From assembly GCA_951640195.1 (NCBI GenBank), contig OX621172.1, positions 124,001 to 188,000 on the forward strand: 64,000 bases of DNA, in the 5' to 3' direction. Position 1 is the stretch's first letter; each line of letters starts with the position of its first letter. Shown piece after piece: positions 4,390 through 48,510 of the stretch. This DNA comes from Porpolomopsis calyptriformis. Taxonomy: Eukaryota; Basidiomycota; Agaricomycetes; Agaricales; Hygrophoraceae. Under the pieces are notes generated by a model. It was not told the origin of the DNA. It did not search any database and worked only from the letters and a program-made list of their open reading frames with translations. Position numbers and translations under genes: made by a program.

Positions 4390-7318
4390 GAGCCCATTCA
4401 GCCAAGATAGCAGTGAACTACAGTGAAATGAACTTGCTATATAGCGGTGTTTCTCGGTCCACCAATCTTCAGCCAAAAATACATATATAGCTGATGTACA
4501 CTGAAGCACCAAAATTTATATATAGTAGTGAAATACATCTCCACTAAAAGGCAGGTATGCCAGTACACTACAGGGTAGCCAAGAGTGATAAGGGAGATAC
4601 ACTAATGGGCTAAAGATAGTACTCACCAAAGACTATGGAGGGGCCAAGAAATGGATGTATATGTATATGGCTTGGCCGAGATATAGATTGCTGATAACTA
4701 CCGATGGGCCGAAGGTGGTTTCTACTATATATACAGGTTGGCTGAGATATAGATTGCCAATGCCTACCGATGGGCTGAAGGTGGTTTCTACTATATATAC
4801 AGGTTGGCCGAGATATAGATTGCCAATAACTACTGATGGGCTGAAGGTGGTTTCTACTATATATACAGGTTGGCCGAGATCGGTATGCTATACTACACCT
4901 TCAGAGATGTCCACCAATGCCGAGAATGGCTCAGCTGAGGGGTAGCAGTTGCATCGGTACCCTATAAATATGTGTATAGTAGATATAAATATATATTGCG
5001 AATAATTAATTGCTTCAGCTATAAACAACTTTGCTGATAATTGTATACTTTAATCCACCTTCAGAGAGGTCCGCTGATGCTGAGAATAGCTCAGCCGAGG
5101 GGTAGCAGTTGCCTCAGTACCCTATACATATGCATATAGTAGATAGAAATACATATTGTCAATAATTAATTGCTTTGGCTTTAGATAACTTCACTGATAA
5201 TTGCATGCATTAATCCACCTTCGGAGAGGTCCGCCGATGCCGAGAATGGCTCGGCCAAGGGGTAGCAGTTGCCTCAGTACTGTATACATATGCATATAGT
5301 AGATAGAAATACATATTGTGAATAATTGATTGCTTTGGCCTTAGGTAACTTTGCTGATAATTGCATGCATTAATCCACCTTCAGAGAGGTCCACTGACGC
5401 CGAGAATGGCTCGGCCGAGGGGTAGCAGTTGCCTCAGTACCCTATACATATGCATAGTAGATAGAAATACATATTGTGAATGATTAATTGCTTTGGCCTT
5501 GGGCAACTTTGCTGATAATTGCATGCATTAATCCACCTTCAGGGGGGTCCGCCGACACCGAGGATGGCTTCGCCGAGGTTTCACAGCTGCCTCGGTAACC
5601 TACACTCCATGGATAATTTATTAATATAACTTCTATAGAGATGTAAGACTATCTATCTTAGAGTAGTGCAACATATTTCCTATTTTATTTCTATCTCAAT
5701 AGTGAGGTATTCAATGTTTAGTTGTTACTCTCTGCTAAAATGCAATGTCAAATTTTGGACTTGATAAATATGCTTGTAAAAAATCCAGAAATATTTGTAC
5801 CACTTGTATATGTACTTCATATTCTATTAATACTATGTGCCTAATACTGAGTAGTCTACTATGTTTGAATGTAATGAAAAAACTCTATAGATTTATATAG
5901 TAACCTATACTGTGACAGTGTAGAGTAACATTGAACATAGGTTAATCTAACACAACATTTTCTACACAGTTTACTTATACTAGCACACCCTGTCAGGCAC
6001 ATCAAATAAATGTAATATAGAGTATATAAACAAGTGGTACAAATATTTCTAGATTTTTTACAAGCATATTTATCAAGCCCAAAATTTGATGTTGCATTTT
6101 AGCAGAGAGTAACAACTAAACATTGAATACCTCACTATTGAGATAGAAATAACATAGGAAATATGTTGCACTACTCTAAGATAGATTGTCTTACATCTCT
6201 ATAGAAGTTATATTAATAAATTATCCATGGAGTGTAGGTTACCGAGGCAGCTGTGAAACCTCGGTGAAGCTATCCTCGGTGTCGGTGGACCCCCCTGAAG
6301 GTGGATTAATGCATGCAATTATCAGTAAAGTTATCTAAAGCTAAAGCAATTAATTATTCACAATATGTATTTCTATCTACTATATGCATATGTATAGGGT
6401 ACTGAGGCAACTGCTACCCCTCGGCCGAGCCAGTCTTGGCATCGGTGGACCTCTCCGAAGGTGGATTAATGCATGCCATTATCAGCAAAGTTATCTAAAC
6501 CCAAAGCAATCAATTATTGACAATATGTATTTCTATCTACTATATGCATATGTATAGGGTACTGAGGCAACTGCTACCCCTCGGCCGAGCCATTCTCGGC
6601 ATCGGTGGACCTCTCCGAAGGTGGATTAATGCATGCAATTATCAGTGAAGTTATCTAAAGCCAAAGCAATTAATTATTGACAATATGTATTTCTATCTAC
6701 TATATGCATATGTATAGGGTACTGAGGCAACTGCTACCCCTCGGCTGAGCTATTCTCGGCATCAGTGGACCTCTCCGAAGGTGGATTAAAGTATACAATT
6801 ATCAGCAAAGTTGTTCATAGCTGAAGCAATTAATTATTCGCAATATATATTTGTATCTACTATACACATATTTATAGGGTACCGATGCAACTGCTACCCC
6901 TTAGCTGAGCCATTCTCAGCATCGGTGGACATCTCTGAAGGTGTAGTATAGCATACTGATCTCAGCCAACCTGTATATATAGTAGAAACCACCTTCGGCC
7001 CATCAGTAGTTATTGGCAATCTATATCTCAGCTGAGCCATATACATATACATCCATTTCTTGGCCCCTCCATAGTCTTTGGTGAGTACTATCTTCGGCCC
7101 ATTAGTGTATCTCCCTTATCACTCTTGGCTACCCTGTAGTGTACTGGCATACCTGCCTTTTAGTGGAGATGTATTTCACTACTATATATAAATTTCGGCG
7201 CTTCAGTGTACATCAGCTATATATGTATTTTCGGCCAAAGATCGGTGGACCAAGAAACACCGCTATATAGCAAGTTCATTTCACTGTAGTTCACCACTAT
7301 CTTTGACTGAACCATGTG
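4390..7318. mobile_element. Foldback-type element with 1.3-1.4 kb inverted arms
   Basis: About 4390-5812 is repeated as its reverse complement at about 6027-7318, around a loop of roughly 210 bp. The 7-bp sequence TTAATAT lies directly outside both ends (4383-4389 and 7319-7325) and is the likely target-site duplication; the outer 20 bp of the arms have diverged. Each arm is itself repetitive. It has about four 60-65 bp units (4655-4890 and mirror) and four units of about 162 bp centred near 5065, 5226, 5388 and 5548, each with a GAGGTCCGC and GAATGGCTCGGCC block. No transposase frame is present, so it would need activity supplied in trans. Built like Drosophila FB or large MULE-derived foldbacks; the superfamily is unknown. 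Confidence 0.8.
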
Positions 7319-26868: not shown

Positions 26869-29800
26869 TGGGGAGTGGCAACCACGGTTCCAAAATCATT
26901 CGCTTCCCACGGTCTCGCCTACGCATATTCTCCGCCAATTCCAGCTCATCGATGGCACTGAAACCGCAATCACTCTATCGGGCCATCGGACGCTCCGAAA
27001 TGACTGCGAAAGCTTCGGGCCAGTGTCTATTAGTAATAGTATTATGAAATACTTGAAATCTCCCCTACAATCAAGTACTCAAGTATGTACTCTTTTGTTG
27101 TGTCTCGCAATCGCATTGCCTAATGCTGCTAGTTTTTCGTTCTTTTTGGTGCAGCGGGACTTCATTGGTATTACAGTCTTGATCCCAGCTCAGAAATCTT
27201 CTCATCGGAACCAATTAAGCTGGGCTTCAAGCCTCGGGTTAGTCCATTCGTTTGGGCTGATTTTATTGAAGTCAAAGATGACTGTGACACCATCTAGTCA
27301 CTCGTTTTCATCGTCCCTCCTCTTCTGCCGTTCAGCATCCTTGCGGTGCCCTGCTTCCACCACAGCCCGGTCTGCCTTTGCAATTGCCTCACGATCTCTT
27401 TTTGCCCTACCACTACCATCAACCACCCAAGCCTCCCGACGATGGAACTGTTGATCCTGTGGCCTTGATGCATGCTCGTGGAGGTATATCCCTGTCTGGT
27501 TTTAGTTATACATCGATCACGCATTCCCTTGGTCTAATCCAATTGATGGCGCAACCCATGATTGAACTCGAAATGATCCAAGTGCCCCTTCGTTGGGATC
27601 ATTGGTAGTTTCCATGTGCGCGAGTGCCTTTTCTGCTGATGATAGGGATGCTATTGCACCACCAGACTCAAACTCTGCAGAGAACCGGCCCCACGTTTCT
27701 AACGCGCCTTTAAAGAAGGCAACTGTTGCTCCGCGAAGATGAGGGAGGTCTGCAGCCATACTTTGGACAACATAGAATGCCTCAGGTCACTGCCAGCTTT
27801 GCCCGTCCATAGATCCGGTTTCATACGATGCCTCAGGAGACAGTAGGAGTTCAGGATCGTCTATGATATTTTGACAGTGAGTCTGCACCTGTTTGTGCAG
27901 TGGCCCAAGGTCCAAAACATTGATATTTAGTTTCCCAGGTCCCCGAACCACTCGCATATACAGGTATGTGATGGAGAGCAGGTAAAGAACAAGAACACAG
28001 AGCTCGGTGATAGTTGGAATATCGCTCAAGGCATTCAGGACATTTTGCTCCATGTTCATAAAGGTTCTTGCCTCTTTCTTGTCACGTATGAATACTAGAA
28101 AGTTGATGTAGGTTTGGAGATGAACGATGAGAACAGCGGCGGCTTCACAGTGTGACTGATAACGCGTATTACTCATGTCTGGGAACCTGATTCTTGTTCC
28201 GAGCTTCGACTCCAGGTATATTTGGAGTGTCTTGTGTTGTCCTTTTTTATCATCTTTGTGGTTGAAGATTCCTCCAGCAAGGCTCGTTGCCTTCACAGCC
28301 CCACACTGCGAAACCTCCTCTGCTCTCTCCTGAGCAGCAGAAGGTCCAGCAGCTGCCGCTGCTGTGTTATCACGATTCATCAAGCAAATTGGACCTTCGA
28401 GGTTGTTCTCAATCCAATAACCCATCATGGCTGTGTTTCCCCCTTTCACTGAATTTATCTCTTTGTGCATGCAGCACCCAACCCAGATGAAGAGATTCAC
28501 TTGGCGTTTTGCCTCTGCATCCAGCTGATCATATGCTTGCTTTCTGAATCGTATGGTGACAGCACGACATGCTGCCTTATCTCGCACATCTTGCTCCTCC
28601 TTCCCAAGTGCGTCCCATCCTGCAATACCCCCAGCTGCAGCTAACTTCTCCTCATTTTCCTCCATTAACACTGAGATGAGCTCCGACGGCACAGCAGCCA
28701 GCATTGCAGCAACCCCTCGTACCTCCCAGTCACATGACAATTTCCATTCTCTCATCAAGCGGAACAGTTTCTTCTGGTCCTCGGCGTGATCTGTATTCAA
28801 ACCTGTCATCTTTGCCGTAAACTCCATCAAATTTGCAGGTTTCTCCACCCCTTGCGGACTGGCGTTGTATGTGGTATAGAGGTCGAGTAGTGAGTCCTTC
28901 CATCCTTGCAGCTGACTCTCACTGGTGTGATTGGTTGCAGATCGGATGCCTAGAAAGAATCGCGTTGGACAGGATGGTTCGGATACTGCAGTTGTCATTG
29001 AGGTGCTGGCCAACAGGTTACTTCTCATTAAGATGTAAGCACTTTCGTAATTGCGATGCTTGTGTGATGTGCCGTCACTGCTGATGGTGTAACCTGCCAA
29101 CCTGGTATTAGTTTTATCAACAAAAATAGTTTGAGGCTTACTTTTAGCTTCGAGAATATTGTGCACGACCTGAATTTTGGCCCCAACACCACCTTCGAGC
29201 ACCACCCGACCAGCAGTTCTGGAGCTGATTTTGTGTTTGAAAGGAACCTCCATGGTATCCGCCACTACCTGGAATGCTTCGCCGACTTTTGCGATGGGAA
29301 CTCCACATTTTGAAACCAACTCTCTCACTGCTGACCTGGTCTTCTCGGCATAAATCCCCTTTGGTTTAAGTTGTGCAATAGATCCCACTGCACTGGCCTT
29401 CTCTTTCACTCTCACAGCATGCTTCACAGCTGTGATGACCCTCTGAGACACCCATGCATTTCTCATGCGAAGCTTGTCCTTTGCTGCTGTGAGCACCTTG
29501 TTCTGCTGATGTGTCTTCTGGTTAAGACAACTGCGTGCCTCCTTGAGAAGATGGCTCTTGCTCGTATTCTCCTTGCTGAGTATCTGAACCCTGCTTTCCA
29601 GCTCCAAGAGCTTTGCATCCATCACAGCAAGCCTTGCATCTGCTGTGGAGAGCTTAGCCTTGGATTCTCCGAAATTCGCCTGAAGTATAGAATTGGAGCT
29701 CCTGGCTCTCTGGAGCTGACGAGAAACATTGTAGAGGGTCCCCGTAACAAATCTGTCCTTACTTAGTTTCTTTTTGACACCCAACATGATTTCAACTTTG

Positions 29801-30322
29801 GGACAGGCATTTTCTTTATTGGGGTGATTGATAGCACTAAGATTTTGCTGGGACACAGATCTTTGCAAAGAAGAGTGTTTCCGCTTAAGCATGAGATCCC
29901 AGACACGATTGTGAGTAGCAGCAAGTTTTTTAGCCGATGGTGTTTCCAGATTGGGACACAACTTTAAGGTGATTCTTCAACCATTGCTGTGGGTGGCCAC
30001 ATCCCTTGGAGGACTGTTTCAGACACCTAGGGTTATGTTATTTTGTCCTCTGAACAAAATGTTGGGAGCAGAATTTTTTTATCCACTCAAACTGGGAAAT
30101 TTTGAGGGCTAACTCCAAGACTAAGACCTTTTAAAAAAATGTGCTCCCAACAATTTTATCTAAAGAGCATTAGCTACAACTTTGCCCGCCAAAACTAGTT
30201 GCCAGGAGGGTCAGAGGAAGCCCCGCAGGCTTCGCCATTTTCTGTTTTTCATTTGGTGTGCCAGTCGGTGGCGGTGCACGAACGCTACGGAGTTCGAATT
30301 GGCAGGGCATTGCCACTCCCCA
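26869..30322 (-). mobile_element. DNA transposon of unassigned superfamily, 3454 bp
   Basis: Perfect 13-bp terminal inverted repeats TGGGGAGTGGCAA (26869-26881, and reverse complement 30310-30322) are flanked by an identical 7-bp target duplication CAGATAG (26862-26868 and 30323-30329). One large minus-strand gene with one recognisable intron fills most of the interior. A 7-bp duplication is unusual; hAT gives 8, MULE 9 and CACTA 3. The encoded protein lacks the motifs I would expect for hAT, CACTA/Plavaka, MULE, pogo or KDZ. Confidence 0.85.
27298..29961 (-). pseudogene. Putative DDE-type transposase with coiled coil; one nonsense codon
   Basis: The first 724 codons (29961-27787) are open. 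The frame continues past TGA (27787-27789) for about 77 more codons. A likely 60-bp intron (27496-27555, GTTGCG..ACCAG with ACTAAAAC) then leads to a basic tail ending KRRDDENE at 27298. Residues 75-190 form a coiled coil. VRELVSKCGVPIAKVG is at about 212-227 and the motif SSDGTSHKHRNYES at 294-307. NTDHAEDQKKLF is at 389-400, CCMHKEIN at 496-503 and NTRYQSHCEAAAV at 598-610. By analogy with metazoan transposon proteins I remember with SDGT/S-x-DRA.xxKKF/H..N motifs, D296, D391 and E606 are candidate catalytic residues (inference). C499 and H500 lie in a conserved-looking C-x-H-x3-N. The protein lies inside terminal repeats, which supports the transposase role. TGA probably arose from CGA. Confidence 0.65.
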
Positions 30323-36954: not shown

Positions 36955-38382
36955 CTTGATGTGCAGGCAGAGGTTTGGATGGCATAGTGCTAATGTCAGA
37001 GGACGTCGGACGTGTCCAATATAAATCTTTAACAGCTTCCTTGTGGTGGCTGATTCCCACCTCATCCAAGTCCACCATGCTGATGGTGGAAGTGATATTG
37101 TCCCATTCATCAATGAAGAAGGAGTTGCCGGCATCAGATGAAGGTTTGTGCTTGTGGGTTTATTTGAATGGGTCTTGTGAGGGGGCATCTATCATAGAAG
37201 ACGATAGTGAGGTCAGCGCGGACAAGGAAGATGATTGTGTTATCGTTGTGGGTAGATTGACATCCATATCAGTAGTCTCGGATACATGGTGTGTGTGTCT
37301 CAATTCACCAGGACTTGTGCAGGCTTGAGGAGAAGATACAGAGTGAGCGGGAAGAGATTCCAGATTAGTGTTGCCATTATTGTCAGTCGGGGTGAGACGG
37401 ATTCGTGATGGCGCATGGCAAAAGTTGTGGTGTATGATGCAGCTAGACTGAGCAGTGTCGGACTCCTCAATCAAGTCTTCAGAATGGAGTCGAATAACAT
37501 TCATTTCCATTGCCTGAGGATGGAATTAATCTAGGGGAATTGAACGGGTGTAGGTGTGATCTACCTTGATGAGTGAATCTATCGCGACACGGATGGAGTC
37601 CCACATGACGCCTTTGTTGGAATTGTTAGTAGAGAATTGCGCTGGTCTAGATGCTTCGATATAATCAATGACTTGCTGTATTTTGCGGAACTCCTTCAAT
37701 TCGTATTTCTAGTTAGCTAGTTGCTTGATGAGATTGTCACTGATGTCATTGGAGTTGATGTCCTCCATAATTGTTTTGTCCTTGATTATAACATTGGCAG
37801 GGAATGGAACAGAGAGAGTCCATGTCGGTGTCAATACCCATTTGTTGCCGCATTTCATTTTGGCCTCTTGCACACATCTCCTCATCATGTTCTGAAAGTT
37901 GGTCTGGTGATATGCAATCAACATATTCGCATGATGCGACCAGGTATAGTTGAATGTGAGATGTTCAAAGATGGCTGCCATTGCCAAAGGAGGATGATCC
38001 CATTGGCATGATTTCATTGCAGTCTCAGACAACCATTCACACATAGTCCAGGTGAGGATTGTTGACCCAATGATTAAGGGATCCAGTTTCGGGGTTGCTT
38101 CTGTCCAGGTTTTCATCATCCAGGCTAATAATTTATTGAGGAGCTTCTGGTGCTTGGCAAGCGGAGGCATGTGTGCGTTCAATGAGGATGGTGTTTTCCA
38201 ACATTCATCAAAATGCTTTTTCGACGATGGCCTTGAGATAGTGGGGCATGCTGGACTCATCAATTCCAATTGGAGATGGGGGAGGAGTACCATCTGAGCA
38301 TGCGAAAAGCAATCAAGCATCTGGCGGAAATGTGAATTAGATGATGAGATAGATTTCGGTAGTGAGCTTACTATTGTCAGAC

Positions 38383-38753
38383 TGTCATGGACACTTTTTT
38401 CTTTTTCCTTTTAGTCATACTTGATTAGTCTCCATTCCGTTCATCCTTCTGCTTTACCGTTTTATATATAGAGACTGATCACATGTACCTTCTTTCCGAC
38501 TCTTTCACGAGTCACATTCCGTTTCCGTTATTCCTTTTGTGACTCTTCACTAGTCACATTCCGGATTCCGCTTTGTAATCGTACATACGACTGACTCATG
38601 GCGACTCAGGTAGTTAGTATATAAAGCCTGACCTTTAGTCAGTAGGTTAAGTTCGATTCCTAGTTAGCTCCCCCACTCTTTAGTCGAATTCCATTTCCCT
38701 CATCAGCCCCTCCAATGCGAGAAGTAAAACCCTTCGACTACCAAATCATAACA
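38383..38753 (+). repeat. gypsy-2 5' LTR
   Basis: TGTCATGGACAC..ATCATAACA. TGACTCA at 38592-38598 and TATATAAA at 38618-38625 form a promoter. All three differences from the 3' LTR are transitions at CpG sites, with the TG or CA state in this copy. The interior starts AGAATCGAACTTCC, which resembles the complement of a tRNA T-arm rather than of the CCA end (untested). Confidence 0.95.
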
Positions 38754-38928: not shown

Positions 38929-40343
38929 ATGTCTCAACAAGAATATGAAGCTGATCAGAGCGTTCCCGCACCCGGACCCAGCAACATCCCCACTACCATT
39001 CAAGAAGAAGAAGAAGACGTTGTCCCATTCAACATCGAACAAGAGCTCAGAGATCTAAGAGCACAAATCGATCAATTCCGTGGCTGGTACTACAACGAAG
39101 TCGACGTCAATGACGAACTCCGAAAGGAATTAAAAGCTCTCAAAGAAAGTCGACAAGAAAACGCAGAACCAACCACCCCTCCCCCTCGACGACGATCTGT
39201 ACTTCGAGGACCTGGACTTTCCCCCTCCAATCCTTTCGTTTACCCTACAAGAAGAACCAAATCCGTCCAACCTCCTCTCCCACCAACCTTTCCCACTCAA
39301 CTACCTACCCAGATAACTGCTCCCCCTACACTTCCAGCCCCCACCAAAATCAAAATTGCCGATCCAACTGAATACGATGGAACTTCCAAGAAGCTAGAAG
39401 ATTTCATTCACCAATGTTGACTCAATTTTGTGGTCAAGGACTACAACGACAAACAGAAAATCGTCTACATACTCTCTTATCTCAGAGACGGCAACCCACG
39501 GGCTTGGGGACGACTGTTCACGGAAGGAGTTGATAGAATGAGGAATTTCGTGTGGGACTACGCAACATTCTTGGACGATTTCAGGGAAGCTTTCGGAAGG
39601 ATTAACCCAGCGGCGAAGGCGCGGATCGAGCTAGAAAAAGTGAAGATGACAGGAACGATTGAAGACTACAACCTTCGGTTCATGCAACACGCAGCAAGAA
39701 CTGAGTACAACGAGGCCGCCTTACTTCGGTTTTATAAAGCCGGACTTCCCCAGCCGATCCGAATGCGGATCTACTCGATGGACAATATGCCGTCGACCTT
39801 GCTGGATTGGATGGCGAAAGCGGCCCAATTCGAAGAACAGTACCAGGAGCAACGAGCTGAACAAGCGTTGTGGTCAAGTCGAGACCAAAAAGGAAAGAAG
39901 TCTGAAGCCAAATCAAATCCATGAGGAAACCCTTCCCACTTCACCACCACCACCACTTCATCCCCAATCAAACAAGAATCGAGAGAAGCCTCTCTCAAGA
40001 CAGCGAAACAAGACAACTCCTCCATCACTTGCTACAACTGTGGCAAAAAGGGACATTACGCCAATGAATGTCGAAGCCCATGCGCTGAAGACGTTCCGGC
40101 ACGTCAAGAATCCTCAACTTCTGCTCGAGGAAAAGGAGGAAATCGCGGTCGAGGCAAAGGACGAAATGTCCGAATGATCAATTGGGTTGATACAGAAGAA
40201 TCGGAAGCACGGATAGAGGAAGTACCAGAGGATGACAAAAAAAGGACAGCTAAGGACGACCTGAAGGATATGGGAATCGCGAATTGGGACAAGGAAAGAC
40301 AGGCTGCGCTAGCTCGAGCGTTAAAAGAGCAAAAGGATTTTTA
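38929..40343 (+). pseudogene. gypsy-2 gag
   Basis: Starts MSQQEYEADQ. A coiled coil lies at about residues 35-80 (EQELRDLRAQIDQFRGWYYNE), then a Pro-rich linker and a capsid-like region (KLEDFIHQC.., NPRAWGRLF, FREAFGRINPAAKARIELE, FYKAGLP). The zinc knuckle CYNCGKKGHYANEC lies near 40033-40074, an intact CX2CX4HX4C. Premature TGA at 39418-39420 and 39922-39924. The frame ends at 40341-40343. Pol is in the -1 frame and its open frame begins after a stop at 40251, so the shift must occur within 40254-40343. Confidence 0.9.
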
Positions 40344-43300
40344 ATCTGCCCAAGTGCTAAATGCCCGAGCACTTTGGCGGTGTCCCATGTATGTGTACCA
40401 CCATCTATGAAAAGTTTTCGTTTTCTTGGCACACTTGAACAGGGCAAAGGCGCTCTCGAATTCTATCTTTGGATCACGAGTGCCGACAATCTTCGACGAG
40501 TGGCTATCATAGCACTCATTGACTCTGGCGCCTCAGGGAATTTTATTGACGAAGCATTCGTTCGTCAAATGGAGATATTGACCTATCCATTGGATGAGGT
40601 TATACCGGTACAAAACGCTGATGGTTCCGAGAACCGAGGAGGTCCCATCACGCACGACACAGACCTGTTTATCGAGGCACCAGATCTATCTTTTCGAGAA
40701 CGAATCCGGTTGGAGGTCACCAACTTAGGAAGAAAGCAACAGGTCATCCTCGGCTTCCCATGGCTCTTGCGACACAACCCCACCATCAATTGGACAAAAG
40801 GCACCTTAACCTTTGCGTCTGGTGACACGCTGTTCAGTAGTATGTGAGTTGGAGTGTTGCCCCCACAGGAAGAACTCTACGTCTTTGATTCGAGTCTGAA
40901 ACATGACTCCTTTATCCGTTTGGTCGGAGTTGACCACTCCCGACCAGTTTCCATCGAGGAGGACATCAAATCCTTCATTCCTAGTCGTTATCACAATTTC
41001 TGGCGTGTTTTCCACACCGCAGAATTCGACAAGCTTCCTCCTCGATGTTCCTTTGATCATGCGATCAACCTCTACCCGAATACCAAATTTCAAGTCGGAA
41101 AACTCTATCCCCTTTCCCCCTACGAACAGGTGGAACTTAACAAGTTTATTGACGAAAATCTCAGAACAGGTTGGATACGTCCATCGAAATCACCGCAAGC
41201 TGCTCCTTTCTTCTTTGCGAAAAAGGCAGAAGAGATCAATGCCAAAGGTCTCAGTGCTGGTCTACGTCCCATCCAGGACTATCGCTACATCAACTCGAAA
41301 ACCATTCCTGATCGTTATCCCCTCCCCCTTCTATCGGAAATCCTCCAAGTACCGAAGCTTGCTACTGCTTCACTTTTTACTGTTATCGATATTCGATGGG
41401 GATTTAACAACATACGACTCAAGGAAGGGGACGAATGGAAGGCAGCCTTCATCACCAATCGAGGACTCTTCGAACCGACCGTTATGTTCTTTGGACTACG
41501 AAACTCCCCAGCATCTTTTCAACGAATGATAGACGTTCTCTTTAAACCCGTTCTGGACTCCGGCTGTGTTCACATCTATATTGATGACATTCTTATTATG
41601 GGCGACACCCCCGAAGAAATCCGCCACTGGACTGACGAAACCCTTAAACTCATGGAGAAGAATCAACTATCCACCAAACCTGTCAAATGCCAAATGGAGA
41701 AGACCTCTGTTACATACCTTGGTATGATCATTAGTAAAGGTCAACTCGCTATCAACCCAAAAAAGGTAGATGCCATTATCAATTAGCCGACACCCCAAAA
41801 ACTGCGAGACCTCCAATCCTTCCTTGGCACCACCAACTTCTGGCGTCGTTATATCAAAAGTTTCTCCTCAGTTGTTCATCCCCTCTGTGGCCTTTTACGG
41901 AAAGACCAACCTTGGGATTGGTCTCCTTTATGTCAAAAAGCCTTTGAACAGCTCAAATATCTCGTCACTACAGCTCCTGTCCTTCTTACCCCACGGCCAG
42001 ACCTTCCTTACCTCTTAGAGACCGATGCCTCCGATTTCGGTATTGGCGCGGTCTTATCTCAAAAACACGACAATGGCTGGCACCCTGTTGGCTTTTTCTC
42101 GAAGTCCCTACTCCCTGCCGAGTACAACTATCCTACCCATGATCTGGAGATGCTTGCGATCGTCACTTCCCTCAAGTATTGGCGCTATCTTTTAGAGGGC
42201 GCAAGGGATACTGTATTGATAAAAACAGACAATTTGGCGCTGAAGTATTTCATGCAGAACAGATCCCTCTCCAGATGACAAGCACGTTGGATGGAATTCT
42301 TAGGCAGATTCGACTTCAAGATCGAGTATTCTCCTGGAGTCAAGAATAAAGCTGATGGACTCTCTCGCCGACCCGACCACCGTCGTACAGAAAAAGAAGA
42401 ACCAGAAGGTCAAGCCCTCCTCCCTCCTGAACGTTTCATCAATGCTATCATTTCCATGTCCGAACCCTCTTTCATGTCAAGACTTCGCTTCCCCGACTTC
42501 AATCAAATCCCAGAGGACATTCGCATCAAATTATCCGATCCCTCTTCCGGCTACTCCTTCACTGACGGAATTGCGAGAGATGCAGGAGATCGTATTGTCG
42601 TGCCAGCGGACGTATCGCTACGCACAGAGATAATTCGATTGACCCACTCCCTACCCCATGGAGGCCATCCCGGAATCGAGAAGACACGTGAGCTTGTGTT
42701 GCAGAACTACACCTGGAGTAGTGCTGCCCCTGACATCCATGTATTCGTATCATCCTGTCCGACCTGTCAATAAGTCAAGCTCTATCCCTCTAAGCCTGCA
42801 GGTCTCCTAGAACCCATTCCCCCTTCGTCTCGACCTTGGAAAGAAATCACCGCCGATCTGATCGTGGAACTCCCCCAATCATCTGGCTACGATGCTATCT
42901 TAGTCGTTGTCGATCGCTTTACCAAACGTGCTCACTTTATCCCGACGACATCGAGCATTTCTGCAGAAGGAGTCGCAAAACTCTTCAGGGACAACGTATG
43001 GAAACACCACGGCTGGCCAAAGAAGATCATAACCGATCGAGGAACTCAATTCGCTTCCAAATTCGCAAAAGCTCTCAACACTCATTTGGGAATCATCTCC
43101 GGTCTATCCACCGCTTATCATCCCCAAACTGATGGTCAAACGGAACGCACCAATCAAGAACTTGAACAATACCTTCGTTTATACACAAACTTTATGCAAG
43201 ACGATTGGTCCAACTGGCTATCCCCAGCTGAATTCGCGTATAATAACCGACAACACTCCTCGACGAAACACACTCCCTTTTACCTTGACACTGGCCAACA

Positions 43301-43904
43301 TCCCTTCGTCCCATCTATCCCTGCGATCCCTACTTCCAATCCCGCAGCAGATGCCTTTCACGATCATCTCACAGAAGCCCATGAAGAAGCCACAAAAGCT
43401 CTAGAAACAACGGCCGAAACCATGAAACGCTTCGCAGATCGTAAACGGAAAGATACCCAACTCCAAATAGGTCAATTTGTTTATCTTGATACCCGTAACT
43501 TAAAAACAGGTCGTCCAACTCCCAAACTTGATGTCCGACGCACTGGACCATTCAAAGTTCTAGAAAGAATCGGAAAAGTCTCTTATTGCCTGGCCCTTCC
43601 CTTATCATGGAAAATACACAACGTCTTTCACGTTTCACTCCTGAGACCCGCTAACATTAACTCCGATCTCCATCCAGAGGAAGTAGATGATAATCTCCGT
43701 CCACCTCCAGATGTCATTCAAGAGAAAGAAGAATACGAGGTCGAACAAATTCTCCAACACCACGGGTCTACCCGACGTCGTATGTATTTGGTTAAATGGG
43801 TCAGCTATCCCATTGAAGAAGCAACTTGGGAGCCGAAGAAGAACCTCCTCCATGCGAAAGAATGAATTCTAGAATACGAACACTCAATTCAAATGGCGAC
43901 CTAA
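40254..43904 (+). pseudogene. gypsy-2 pol: protease, RT, RNase H, integrase, chromodomain
   Basis: Protease LIDSGASGNFID at about 40518-40553. RT has QDYRYINSKT and the catalytic YIDDILIMG near 41580. RNase H LETDASDFGIGAVLSQ near 42020. Integrase has the zinc region ending SSCPTCQ (42750-42770) and catalytic EITADLI, ITDRGTQFAS and TDGQTERTNQ, with all three acidic residues present. The chromodomain (EEYEVEQILQ..YLVKWVSYPIEEATWEP) near 43730-43850 has the usual aromatic cage positions, which in relatives reads H3K9 methylation. Premature stops are TGA 40845, TAG 41784, TGA 42276, TAA 42771 and TGA 43863; the likely original end is TAA at 43902. Confidence 0.94.
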
Positions 43905-44023: not shown

Positions 44024-44602
44024 ATGCCCACAGAACGCTCACACCAAACCGCTCGCAAATCAACCGGTGGTCGTCCACCCCGCGCTCCTCATATGTCCAC
44101 TGGAGGACAACCCCCTCGCCGCGCTCCCCCTCCGCTTGCTTCCACCTCCTCCGCCTACGGTGAAGCTGAGCTCGCCGGACAACTCTGGCAACACAACCGT
44201 CGCGCGCGCAATCGGGACCTTCCCATATGGCCAGAAGAGATCATTGCGCCACCCATCCCACCCGAGCAAATCATCGAGTCACTGCAGAAGGACGTCGAAT
44301 ACTACAAAAGCGAAATCATGAGACTGAATGAAGAGCTGTACAATCAAGGAATGAGTTTAGATGGAAAGAGAAGAGCGAGTGAGTATTGGCGAGAACAGGC
44401 CAAACACTGGGAGACGAAATACGAGGAAGCCATAAAGGTACTTCCCCATCTTGATTCCCCAGCCCCTCCTGTTTTCCCAGGTCCACTCATCGTTCCCCCC
44501 GGTTCGTCATCGAACCCCATCACCATCCCCGACGACGACGATACTTCCCCGGTCGACATTAATTCCCTGTCAACCACCTTCTCCGACAAGGACTTAATCT
44601 AG
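44024..44602 (+). CDS. Second gypsy-2 protein: histone H3 tail-like N-terminus, coiled coil, acidic tail
   Basis: 192 codons, intact, 120 bp after pol and 80 bp before the 3' LTR. After MPTERSH comes QTARKSTGGRPPR, which matches H3 residues 5-17 (QTARKSTGGKAPR) at 11 of 13 positions, including the K9 context ARKS. A second partial copy STGGQPPRRAP follows eight residues later, reminiscent of the H3 STGG around residue 32. Residues about 85-145 form a coiled coil (EQIIESLQKDVEYYKSEI..REQAKHWETKYEEAI). A Pro-rich stretch and an acidic end (PDDDDTSPVD) follow. Start chosen at the first ATG, which begins the H3-like block. A spliced or internally initiated transcript is possible (CACCAG acceptor at 44005-44010). 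Being element-encoded next to a chromodomain integrase, it may mimic or compete with nucleosomal H3 (inference). Confidence 0.75.
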   Translation: MPTERSHQTARKSTGGRPPRAPHMSTGGQPPRRAPPPLASTSSAYGEAELAGQLWQHNRRARNRDLPIWPEEIIAPPIPPEQIIESLQKDVEYYKSEIMRLNEELYNQGMSLDGKRRASEYWREQAKHWETKYEEAIKVLPHLDSPAPPVFPGPLIVPPGSSSNPITIPDDDDTSPVDINSLSTTFSDKDLI

Positions 44603-44682: not shown

Positions 44683-45053
44683 TGTCACGGACACTTTTTT
44701 CTTTTTCCTTTTAGTCATACTTGATTAGTCTCCATTCCGTTCATCCTTCCGCTTTACCGTTTTATATATAGAGACTGATCACATGTACCTTCTTTCCGAC
44801 TCTTTCACGAGTCACATTCCGTTTCCGTTATTCCTTTTGTGACTCTTCACTAGTCACATTCCGGATTCCGCTTTGTAATCGTACATACGACTGACTCATG
44901 GCGACTCAGGTAGTTAGTATATAAAGCCTGACCTTTAGTCAGTAGGTTAAGTTCGATTCCTAGTTAGCTCCCCCACTCTTTAGTCGAATTCCATTTCCCT
45001 CATCAGCCCCTCCAATGCGAGAAGTAAAACCCTTCGACTACCGAATCATAACA
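44683..45053 (+). repeat. gypsy-2 3' LTR and polypurine tract
   Basis: TGTCACGGACAC..ATCATAACA, preceded by the purine-rich AGTGTGGGTGTA. TGACTCA at 44892-44898, TATATAAA at 44918-44925. Retains CpG at all three sites where the 5' LTR has changed. Confidence 0.95.
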
Positions 45054-45227
45054 CAGACCATGTGGGTGTAGTCCATGAGTTGTGCGGATATGCAGAACCA
45101 AGCCTCCGGTGTAATCGTTACATTTTTGTTCGCAAGTGAAGGCCATATGATGGTCTATGAGCGGTTCAAACCAACGAGATACCTACAGAATTTGTCAATA
45201 GCTGTTCGGATTGAATATGAGGATTGG

Positions 45228-45525: not shown

Positions 45526-47437
45526 ACGCACAATAGTCATTCACTTACCTCCTTCAATGCTTCAGGAAAGTGCCTATATATTCCGTCGAGTTTGAAGAAT
45601 AATGTTCAACATAGCAACAGCATCGGTGTAGTTGTTGATAGTGATTTGATACTCAGAATGAATGTTACTTTGCCAAGTGCCGCCTCATAGAATCCAGCGT
45701 GTTCCAGATTCTCCTGTCTGAGCTGCGAATTCTTGCTTCAGCATTTTCATGACCGCCGTCAGATAGTTTTGATTGTCTGATGTCGCTTTGACTGTGGTTA
45801 GTCTGAGATGCAGTGGGTTTAGTATTGTGGAGTCGAATATGGTGTTGAGACGATTCATCATGGATTCTGTCCAGATTTCCATATTGCAACCCTCCATCGA
45901 TTTCGCCAGTCTCTCAGTCAAATCTTGTATCTGTGCTGTCAATTCATGGTTAGTTGCTTCCTCATCACTCAACTTCTCATGGTTCTTCAACAACTCATTG
46001 ACGTCTTTTGCATTCAGGAATGGGGTCAGAGAGGCAATCTGCTGCAACAATTTATATGCTTCTATAATATGTTCCGCAATGATCTGTGATGTTTCGTCAA
46101 TCGTTAATTATGCTCTGGGATATGCGAGTCTGCTCACTCCTCTGTGAATGTTCATGAATTGCATTGATAATTGTGCCATGTTGAATTCCAGTAGCATCCT
46201 AAAATGTCCCTTGAATGATACAAGTATCGAAAGCATGCGTGTGATCTGTGAGTTCCCAACGAGATGTGAAAGATGACTGTTCTGGGTCTTGAACTCCTTT
46301 CGAATAATCTCCAGCTCCTTCTCGAATTCGTCATTGTTTTCCAATGAGAGTCGAGCTAGGTGCTCTGCGAGTCCTTCTTCCTCTGTCTTTTGATAATTGT
46401 ACAGTGTCTGATTCTCTGATAAATGTTTCGCAACCTCCGCGTCATGCTCCCTAGCTAATTCTGATTGATGCGTTAGCGGATGAGATCACAGATATGACTG
46501 TGTCTGTTACTTACTCGCATTGTACACTCTCACACCCCACATGCCCATCTCATGCATCTTATCCTTCAATCCAGCAATCTGTTTGTCAAGCTCAACTTGT
46601 CCTTCCTCGTCCAACTGGGTCTGATCCTTCTTCTTGTTCTTGGGGTGGAGAAGCGCTTGGATCTGCATATTGCAGGTATCATAGAGTGACTGAATTGCAG
46701 TGAAGCAATGCTGTCTGGCTGCTATAATGAGTTTCTGCGTTCCATCCACATGCTTTGAATCGAACTCTGGCAGCTCTGCATTTGGGTCCATTGACAACTC
46801 GCACTTGAGATCCTCACAATCGATGATTAGTATGAGGAAGTTGCAAGGGTCGTGGTGTCAGATTCTGTGTGTTTCCATTGATGTCCTCAGCTTCTTGACC
46901 TCCGTTACCTTCAATGGCTGAGGGTTCCAAGTGCCAAAACAAAGTTCCTATTTGTCCGCAAACACATCCAACATTGCATAACCAAGGAGACACTTCTGGG
47001 CTGTGGTGTCCAGGTGCATTGCCTTTAAGGCTAGACCCTCCACATCTCCTACATCTATGTTAATATCCGATCCGGTATCCTAACATCACATAAGTCAATG
47101 GTTCCCACAAAACAATGTGTAGTATGAATTCACATACCAATGAGTCCAACGACAGGACTTCTTTCTGTGGACGAGGCGGACTACGCGGACGAGAGGTGGG
47201 CTGTTTTGTTTTCTTAGTTACGATGGACATGTTGATTCGTTAATAGCGCCTTAGAAAGTGGGCACAAGATGATGATGAACAGACTCGCACACTCCGCATT
47301 TATACATAAACACAAGTGAGAATAAGTGAGACTCATGTATTACATGTGTGCAGTAGTTGGTCTGGTCATGTGGAAAAGATTTACAAGAAATGTTGCCTAG
47401 TGCGATGTGAAGTGTAATTAGCAAACAGAGAGTAGCC

Positions 47438-48140
47438 ATGCACATTGGATGCGTCTGATGTGCACGGCTACTCTCCATGTGGACCATATCACTCTGCTCT
47501 GTATTGTAGATATGTTGCGCACATCGGACAAGTACGATGTGTGCAACCAATCTCTGTTTACTCCACATCACTCCACTCTGTATCATACCCATCCGTTGTG
47601 CACGACCTATCTCCATTTACTCTATATCATAGATATGTCGCGCACATCATACTCGTCCGATGTGCGCAACCAATCTCCGTTTACTCCACATCACTCCGCT
47701 CTGTATCATAGATATGTTGCGCACATTGTATGCATCCAATGTGCACAACCTATCTCCGTTTACTCCACATTACTCCACTCCGTATCATATATATGTTGTG
47801 CACATCATACTTATCCGATATGCACAACCAATCTCCGTTTACTCTACATCACTCCACTCTGTATCATAGATATGTTGCACACATCATACTCATCCGATGT
47901 GCGCAACCTATCTCTGTTTACTCTACATCACTCTGCTCCGTATCATAGATATGTCGCACACATTGTACTCATCCAATATGTGTGACCTATCTCCATTTAC
48001 TCCACATCACTCCACTCTGTTTCATAGATATGTTGTGCACATCATACCCATTCGATGTGTGCGACCAATCTCTGTTTACTCCACATCATTCCACTCTGTT
48101 GTATAGATATCTTGCATTCATCATACATTTCTGATGTATG
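47438..48140. repeat. Hairpin array d, about nine 79-bp units
   Basis: Units start near 47438, 47517, 47640, 47719, 47798, 47877, 47956, 48035 and 48114, each step 79 bp except where half a unit is deleted at about 47595-47640. Unit: GTATCATAGATATGTTG, hairpin with centre TACTCGTC, AACC.ATCTCCGTTTACTCC. The hairpin centre and CTCCGTTTAC are shared with array b in reverse complement. It starts 208 bp upstream of the ATG at 47230, in the promoter side of the large gene. Confidence 0.85.
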
Positions 48141-48510
48141 CTATCACTCTCCTCTTATATCTTGTCTTCATTTCTGCACTCCTCCACTCTCCACTTTCAT
48201 CCTCCATCAATCAGGCTTTGTCTTTCGAATCTTATTTTATCAGTTGTAGTAATTAAATTCTATATTTGGTAATATTCCCTAATTTGGGTTATGTGTACTG
48301 CCACCACCTTTGTCAGCTACTTTGTGGCTCACTTGCCTTTTTTATCTGTTTGTCCTCTGTTTGTCATCACTGCATACCTGTCTGAGTTTCAATTCATCAC
48401 ATTATAAGAGAGGGCTCACTCTCGTCTCTTTCTCTTAATTACTCTCATTTCTTTCACCCCACCCACCCACTCCTCTCACCTACCCACTCCCCTCTGTCAC
48501 ACCCAAAGCC

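Follow-up and report, generated by a model that had tools for sequence, protein, structure and literature searches.

Accessory genes that begin with a look-alike of the histone H3K9 tail in two families of chromodomain retroelements from Porpolomopsis calyptriformis

Why should a retrotransposon encode a look-alike of the histone H3 tail? The question is raised by a gypsy element in a 64,000-nucleotide stretch of DNA from Porpolomopsis calyptriformis, the whole of which is here called the window. Downstream of pol lies a second gene, ORF2, whose protein opens with the residues MPTERSHQTARKSTGGRPPRAPHMSTGGQPPRRAP. Within its N-terminus (MPTERSHQTARKSTGGRPPR), 11 of 13 residues are identical to H3 residues 5-17: the block reads QTARKSTGGRPPR, the histone reads QTARKSTGGKAPR, and the two mismatches are K14R and A15P. 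The equivalent of H3 K9 is K12 (codon 44057-44059), and its neighbours are those of the H3K9-like sequence: A at -2, R at -1, then S and T.

The original prediction had singled out this frame by its coordinates, its peptide, its 11/13 match to H3, and a second STGG block a little further on. All of these are as claimed; STGG indeed repeats at residues 25-28. Moreover, the look-alike is a genuine feature: it starts the accessory genes of two chromodomain retroelement families. The analysis summarized here asks how it is conserved, where else it occurs, and what it might do.

The element and its downstream gene

The element (Table 1) displays the sequence hallmarks of a group I chromovirus: RVT_1, rve, SH3_Tf2-1, and C-terminal Chromo domains; LTRs; a target site duplication; and three cage aromatics. 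The integrase had earlier been said to end in a chromodomain, and the PF00385 match, with its cage intact, bears this out. Over 79 loci of the same family, hereafter F1, the cage residues are Y in 78, W in 77, and Y in all 79. Matches of the F1 chromodomain among PDB sequences include HP1-type chromodomains.

Table 1. Features of the element and of ORF2, in window coordinates
Feature	Position	Strand	Details
Target site duplication CAGAC, 5' copy	38378..38382	.	flanks 5' LTR
5' LTR, 371 nt	38383..38753	+	3 differences from 3' LTR
gag position	38929..39924	+	two open pieces, stop 39418 between; no gag match in Pfam
Reverse transcriptase	41253..41732	+	PF00078, E 1.2e-27
Integrase frame	42864..43865	+	rve, SH3_Tf2-1, chromodomain (Pfam)
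Chromodomain	43734..43856	+	PF00385, E 8.7e-12; Y/W/Y aromatic cage present
TATAA	43979..43983	+	45 nt upstream of ORF2 ATG; possible internal promoter (inference)
ORF2, 192 aa	44024..44602	+	open reading frame
H3-like block QTARKSTGGRPPR, ORF2 residues 8-20	44045..44083	+	sequence match to H3 5-17
Second STGG block, STGGQPP, ORF2 residues 25-31	44096..44116	+	
Longest proline-free stretch, ORF2 residues 81-140	44264..44443	+	coiled coil by appearance only
3' LTR, 371 nt	44683..45053	+	
Target site duplication CAGAC, 3' copy	45054..45058	.	

The ORF2 start codon lies 158 nt beyond the integrase stop codon. ORF2 thus follows pol, as does the env-like third ORF of gypsy elements. No Pfam family, env or other, matches ORF2 at E 0.1 or better, and no histone fold follows the tail.

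The window has other conspicuous features. Large nested inverted repeats occupy 4404-7303, with arms of up to 665 nt that are 95% complementary and with tandem units of about 160 nt; a repeat array, mostly with 79-nt spacing, occupies 47417-48171; and an open frame of 724 aa lies on the minus strand at 27787-29961.

ORF2 had been described as intact beside a gag and pol carrying seven nonsense codons. The ORF2 frame is open, and five internal stops were seen in gag and pol: one in gag (39418) and four in the pol frame (40845, 41784, 42276, and 42771). Nor does the intact frame point to special maintenance. Among the 79 loci, stops number 25 over 15105 ORF2 codons and 53 over 24358 integrase codons. 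The window copy offers 17 single C>T or G>A steps to a stop within the 192 codons of ORF2, and 33 within the 333 of the integrase. On these figures, the contrast between an intact ORF2 and a broken pol is nothing special, and the open frame was rejected as evidence of selection.

How might ORF2 be expressed? TATAA stands 45-49 nt before the ATG in 81 of 84 F1 copies (two further copies, L092 and L100, were excluded, their starts not being covered), and it precedes the ATG in all six copies examined from the second family, F2. It is absent from the 80 nt upstream of one copy of a third family (F3) and of one chromodomain-less ORF, the two examined. A spliced subgenomic RNA was also considered, from an AG 14 nt before the ATG. 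However, CAG or TAG occurs in the last 30 nt in only 30 of the 84 F1 copies, so splicing was dropped in favor of TATAA, possibly an internal promoter that would give ORF2 its own transcript in both families. Over the 75 nt that precede their ORFs, F1 and F2 show only a weak alignment, whose score is attained by 22 of 500 shuffles.

Conservation within the first family

The genome contains 130 ORF2 matches, of which those at about 34% identity represent another family. The F1 sample comprises 86 copies (the 80 best-scoring and 6 weaker), picked for their similarity over the whole of ORF2, irrespective of the motif, which favors intact copies. Residues Q8-G16 read QTARKSTGG in 65 of them, QTAHKSTGG in 8, QTACKSTGG in 3, and something else in 9; one copy does not cover the region. 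Residues T9, K12, S13, and T14 are invariant in all 85 covering copies. Position 11 is R in 69, H in 10, and C in 6, both replacements being consistent with CpG decay.

Many other amino-acid differences among F1 copies replace R by H or C, through C>T or G>A at CpG, an indication that inserted copies decay through methylation.

One subfamily, L093-L097, has diverged around the block: its second STGG block has become STERQPL or STEQQPL, and the spacer before the H3-like block is altered. Nevertheless QTARKSTGGRPPR itself is retained in four of these five copies, and the fifth (L097) has one G-to-S change.

Is the block, then, under selection of its own? Fixed differences among six F1 subfamilies, counted over 15 non-independent pairs, are 29 synonymous and 0 nonsynonymous in the block, versus 517 and 303 in the other regions. 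Counted once per codon, they are 4 and 0 over the 9 codons of the block, versus 98 and 53 over the remaining 183 (Fisher p = 0.30). An equal absence of fixed amino-acid change is seen in five other runs, each eight or more codons long. In a between-cluster scan that included decayed copies, the block ranks 31st of 184 scan windows by pN and 92nd of 184 by pN/pS; the sliding-window pN/pS is hard to read, with its decayed copies and many C>T and G>A changes. These fixed-difference counts, the Fisher test, and the ranks together make ORF2 as a whole look like a protein under constraint, with the block among its conserved stretches, not uniquely so. For the purifying selection proposed as a check on the original prediction, the fixed differences speak in favor, as does the comparison with F2 given below (6 synonymous to 1 nonsynonymous in one pair), whereas within F1 the block is not exceptional.

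A second family with the same N-terminus

Reading the sequence downstream of the genome's other chromodomains brought the second family to light. In F2, the ORF following the chromodomain starts MPREVRYARKSTGRRPPRG (L115:306-998, 230 aa); a genome search finds 137 matching places. Where F1 has QTARKSTGG, F2 has VRYARKSTGR, with K10 as its lysine, and so is without Q5-T6 and G13 of the H3 match. The residues common to both families are A-R-K-S-T-G. The similarity extends further: F2 keeps ARKSTG-x-RPPR, and the RPPR that it shares with F1 is only half H3 sequence.

Beyond the N-terminus the two proteins part company. BLASTP aligns the N-terminus alone (16/28 identities, E 1e-4); hhalign gives E 1.6e-4 and a probability of 50% over query residues 1-55. 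A comparison of the window copy with L115, codon by codon from ARKSTG through RPPR (11 codons), gives 4 identical, 6 synonymous, and 1 nonsynonymous. The shared RPPR suggests that the N-terminal module had one origin in F1 and F2, which would mean that the families are not independent cases.

ARKSTG is present in all 16 fetched F2 copies, of which 13 were taken from the list of ARKSTG pattern matches and two more also stand on it. Because these copies were nearly all selected by the motif, a less biased figure comes from contigs C1-C10, where 97 places encode ARKSTG: 53 lie in F1 ORF2, 39 in F2, and 3 in host H3 genes, and 2 are unassigned. F1 or F2 thus account for 92 of the 97. Viewed from the copies, the 74 of F1 on these contigs keep the exact ARKSTG code in 53 cases, and the 88 F2 N-termini in 39; the copies that lack it are presumably for the most part decayed.

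At the amino-acid composition of ORF2, QTARKSTGG is expected by chance about 1.5e-4 times in the six frames of the 33.5 Mb genome. The DNA pattern for QTARKSTG occurs at 72 places, three of them the host H3 genes, versus 0 for the backward control; the corresponding figures are 70 versus 2 for ARKSTGG and 125 versus 14 for ARKSTG.

Related ORFs without the block

Not every such ORF carries the tail. In F3 (L111 and L133), a chromodomain is followed by an ORF starting MPATRSTRSPSPQ, with no ARKS. A further ORF, L093:2990-3511, starts MSTPYSAEAQRQWF and lacks the H3-like block. Its protein is homologous to the coiled-coil part of F1, residues 81-140 of ORF2 (hhalign E 1.5e-9, probability 96%). 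The integrase piece preceding this ORF, in a mosaic locus, has no Pfam chromodomain. No ARKS-type ORF was found in the stretch read for the chromodomain elements L110, L113, L130-L132, and L134, which have another C-terminal extension.

Two structural observations belong here. The loci L093 (1295-3511) and L094-L097, five fetched loci, are mosaics in which an F1-type ORF2 is followed by a coiled-coil-matching stretch; in L093, the sole mosaic locus read, that stretch belongs to a chromodomain-less integrase piece and its own downstream ORF. In L110, L113, L130, L131, and L132, a conserved extension follows the chromodomain (MDDFFGID.RLYDPITDSYGE.YKPP and on), and this has no Pfam match in L110, the one tested.

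The original prediction had staked itself on homologous elements keeping the block. They do so in part: the tail-less relative of the F1 body and the F3 ORF are without it, whereas it recurs in F2. These two tail-less ORFs show that only some lineages have the block and that ORFs of this kind can do without it. The tail appears to behave as a portable module: a relative of the F1 body lacks it, and in F2 it sits on another body, which does not align with that of F1. The association of tail with chromodomain is suggestive only; it covers four ORF families, and for one of these the sequence comes from a mosaic locus.

What the tail may do

The reading favored here, at a probability of roughly 0.4, is that ORF2 would be an H3K9-tail mimic, methylated by a SUV39/Clr4-type enzyme and bound by chromodomains. 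ORF2 would be an accessory protein with an N-terminal H3K9-like tail and a helical, probably coiled-coil body. A host SUV39/Clr4-type enzyme would methylate K12 in its R-K-S-T context, and chromodomains would bind the methylated A-R-K-S-T.

Published preferences on both sides are pertinent. Peptide arrays show that Clr4 favors R at -1, S at +1, and T at +2 (PMC7700585). SUV39H2 reads R8-G12, whereas SUV39H1 is stringent for R8 only (PMC8303541). For the Cbx3 chromodomain the motif is ARKS/T, and Ala at -2 is strictly required (PMC3325965). Group I chromodomains, such as that of MAGGY, bind H3K9me2/3 and require three aromatic residues (PMC2832683). In the host genome itself, Pre-SET matches once, at C14:899559, and SET matches in a neighboring frame. 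From these writer and reader preferences, together with the F1 cage and the host Pre-SET/SET match, we infer that K12 may be methylated and then recognized by chromodomains. The conserved core ARKST links the Clr4 preference with the chromodomain motif ARKS/T. Against this reading count the F3 ORF, which has no block beside its chromodomain; the lack of unique constraint on the block within F1; the H or C that replaces R11 in 16 of 85 copies; and the absence of Q5-T6 and G13 from F2.

The likeliest partner would be the chromodomain of the integrase that the element itself encodes; oligomers of ORF2 would then serve this enzyme as a tether or placeholder. Host HP1-type readers come second. A more specific proposal, which we advance with greater hesitation, is that the element carries a self-contained pair of ligand and reader: a soluble, methylatable H3K9 tail and its own chromodomain, which together would couple integration, or escape from silencing, to the host H3K9 methyltransferase.

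Other readings of the block

Perhaps the block is simply a motif that serves the protein and mimics nothing. ARKSTGxRPPR might be a nucleic-acid-binding, nuclear-import, kinase, or 14-3-3 site that equals H3 by coincidence. The part shared by F1 and F2 includes RPPR, half of which is foreign to H3, and the first 60 residues are net basic (+6 and +10). However, a coincidence of this kind would have to supply nine exact residues, QTARKSTGG, whose expected number genome-wide is so small, and H3K9 writers and readers need the very residues that both families conserve. We consider such a site unlikely, the best placed of the alternatives all the same.

Ranked next, and likewise unlikely, is a decoy role; it is the main rival among the histone-mimic readings. 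ORF2, methylated or not, would titrate the Clr4-type enzyme or HP1-type readers and so leave less heterochromatin on the element. The same sequence evidence that speaks for the H3K9-tail mimic speaks for a decoy: conservation in F1, the ARKSTG counts, and the F2 codons. Many copies, together with the conserved TATAA near the ATG, could give a separate and abundant transcript. Histone H3 is very abundant, so a decoy would need high expression; moreover, it leaves unexplained why a tail-less relative of the coiled coil should follow a chromodomain-less integrase piece.

Might the block be a fossil, the 5' end of a host H3 gene picked up once and functionless since? In all three H3 genes found, the first intron directly follows the STGG codons. 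One of these genes and the window copy share 25 of 26 bases; under synonymous recoding, with the best of the three genes taken, P is 0.0096. In local alignments, 0 of 500 recodings reach the score for that gene, and 8 of 500 that for a second H3 gene. The other ten of the 12 comparisons, made with other subfamilies and with F2, are unremarkable, with 24 to 428 of 500 recodings reaching the score, and RPPR lies beyond the H3 exon boundary. Furthermore, a functionless relic would not be expected to change at synonymous sites and yet preserve its residues. H3 exon 1 may have been captured, an origin compatible with function; a capture that does nothing is improbable.

Chance resemblance we regard as negligible: the original scan covered very many sequences, but the small genome-wide expectation, the forward over backward pattern counts, and the placement of the block at the start of an ORF after a chromodomain integrase in both F1 and F2 (probably through one origin) all stand against it.

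Relation to known systems

The H3K9-tail mimic favored here has partial parallels. MAGGY-type group I chromoviruses are likewise Ty3/gypsy LTR elements with a C-terminal integrase chromodomain and three cage aromatics; MAGGY is described as an H3K9me reader, and the portions of that source drawn on here mention no H3-like peptide made by the element (PMC2832683). Fungal gypsy elements may also possess an extra ORF besides gag and pol. Novikova et al. 2010 (PMC2864245) describe it as an "add. ORF" of unknown function, and the portions of that paper drawn on mention no histone-like sequence.

Among peptides, those around G9a K185 and H1 K26 have the same A-R-K-S/T core and are bound by the chromodomain reader Cbx3 (PMC3325965). 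These belong to host proteins, whereas the ORF2 motif is on a mobile element beside the element's own chromodomain, and its binding is putative. Viral histone mimics, such as the ARKS of coronavirus ORF8, offer another case of a parasite protein with an H3-like sequence. The claim that this ARKS is a mimic is disputed (PMC10833455), a warning here; by comparison, ORF2 matches H3 exactly over nine residues close to its N-terminus, and F2 has the core of that match as well.

Searches for relatives carry little weight: the F1 ORF2 protein gave no matches at E 1 or better (146 candidates), and neither did the F2 protein (1561 candidates). Among viral contigs, F1 gave 7 pattern matches, of which 0 were confirmed. 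No description of a retrotransposon-encoded H3 tail stands among the matches listed in the open-licence literature.

That chromodomain retroelements read heterochromatin is known. If the favored reading is true, one that carries the substrate of the mark as well would deal with silencing in a way that is new among genomic parasites.
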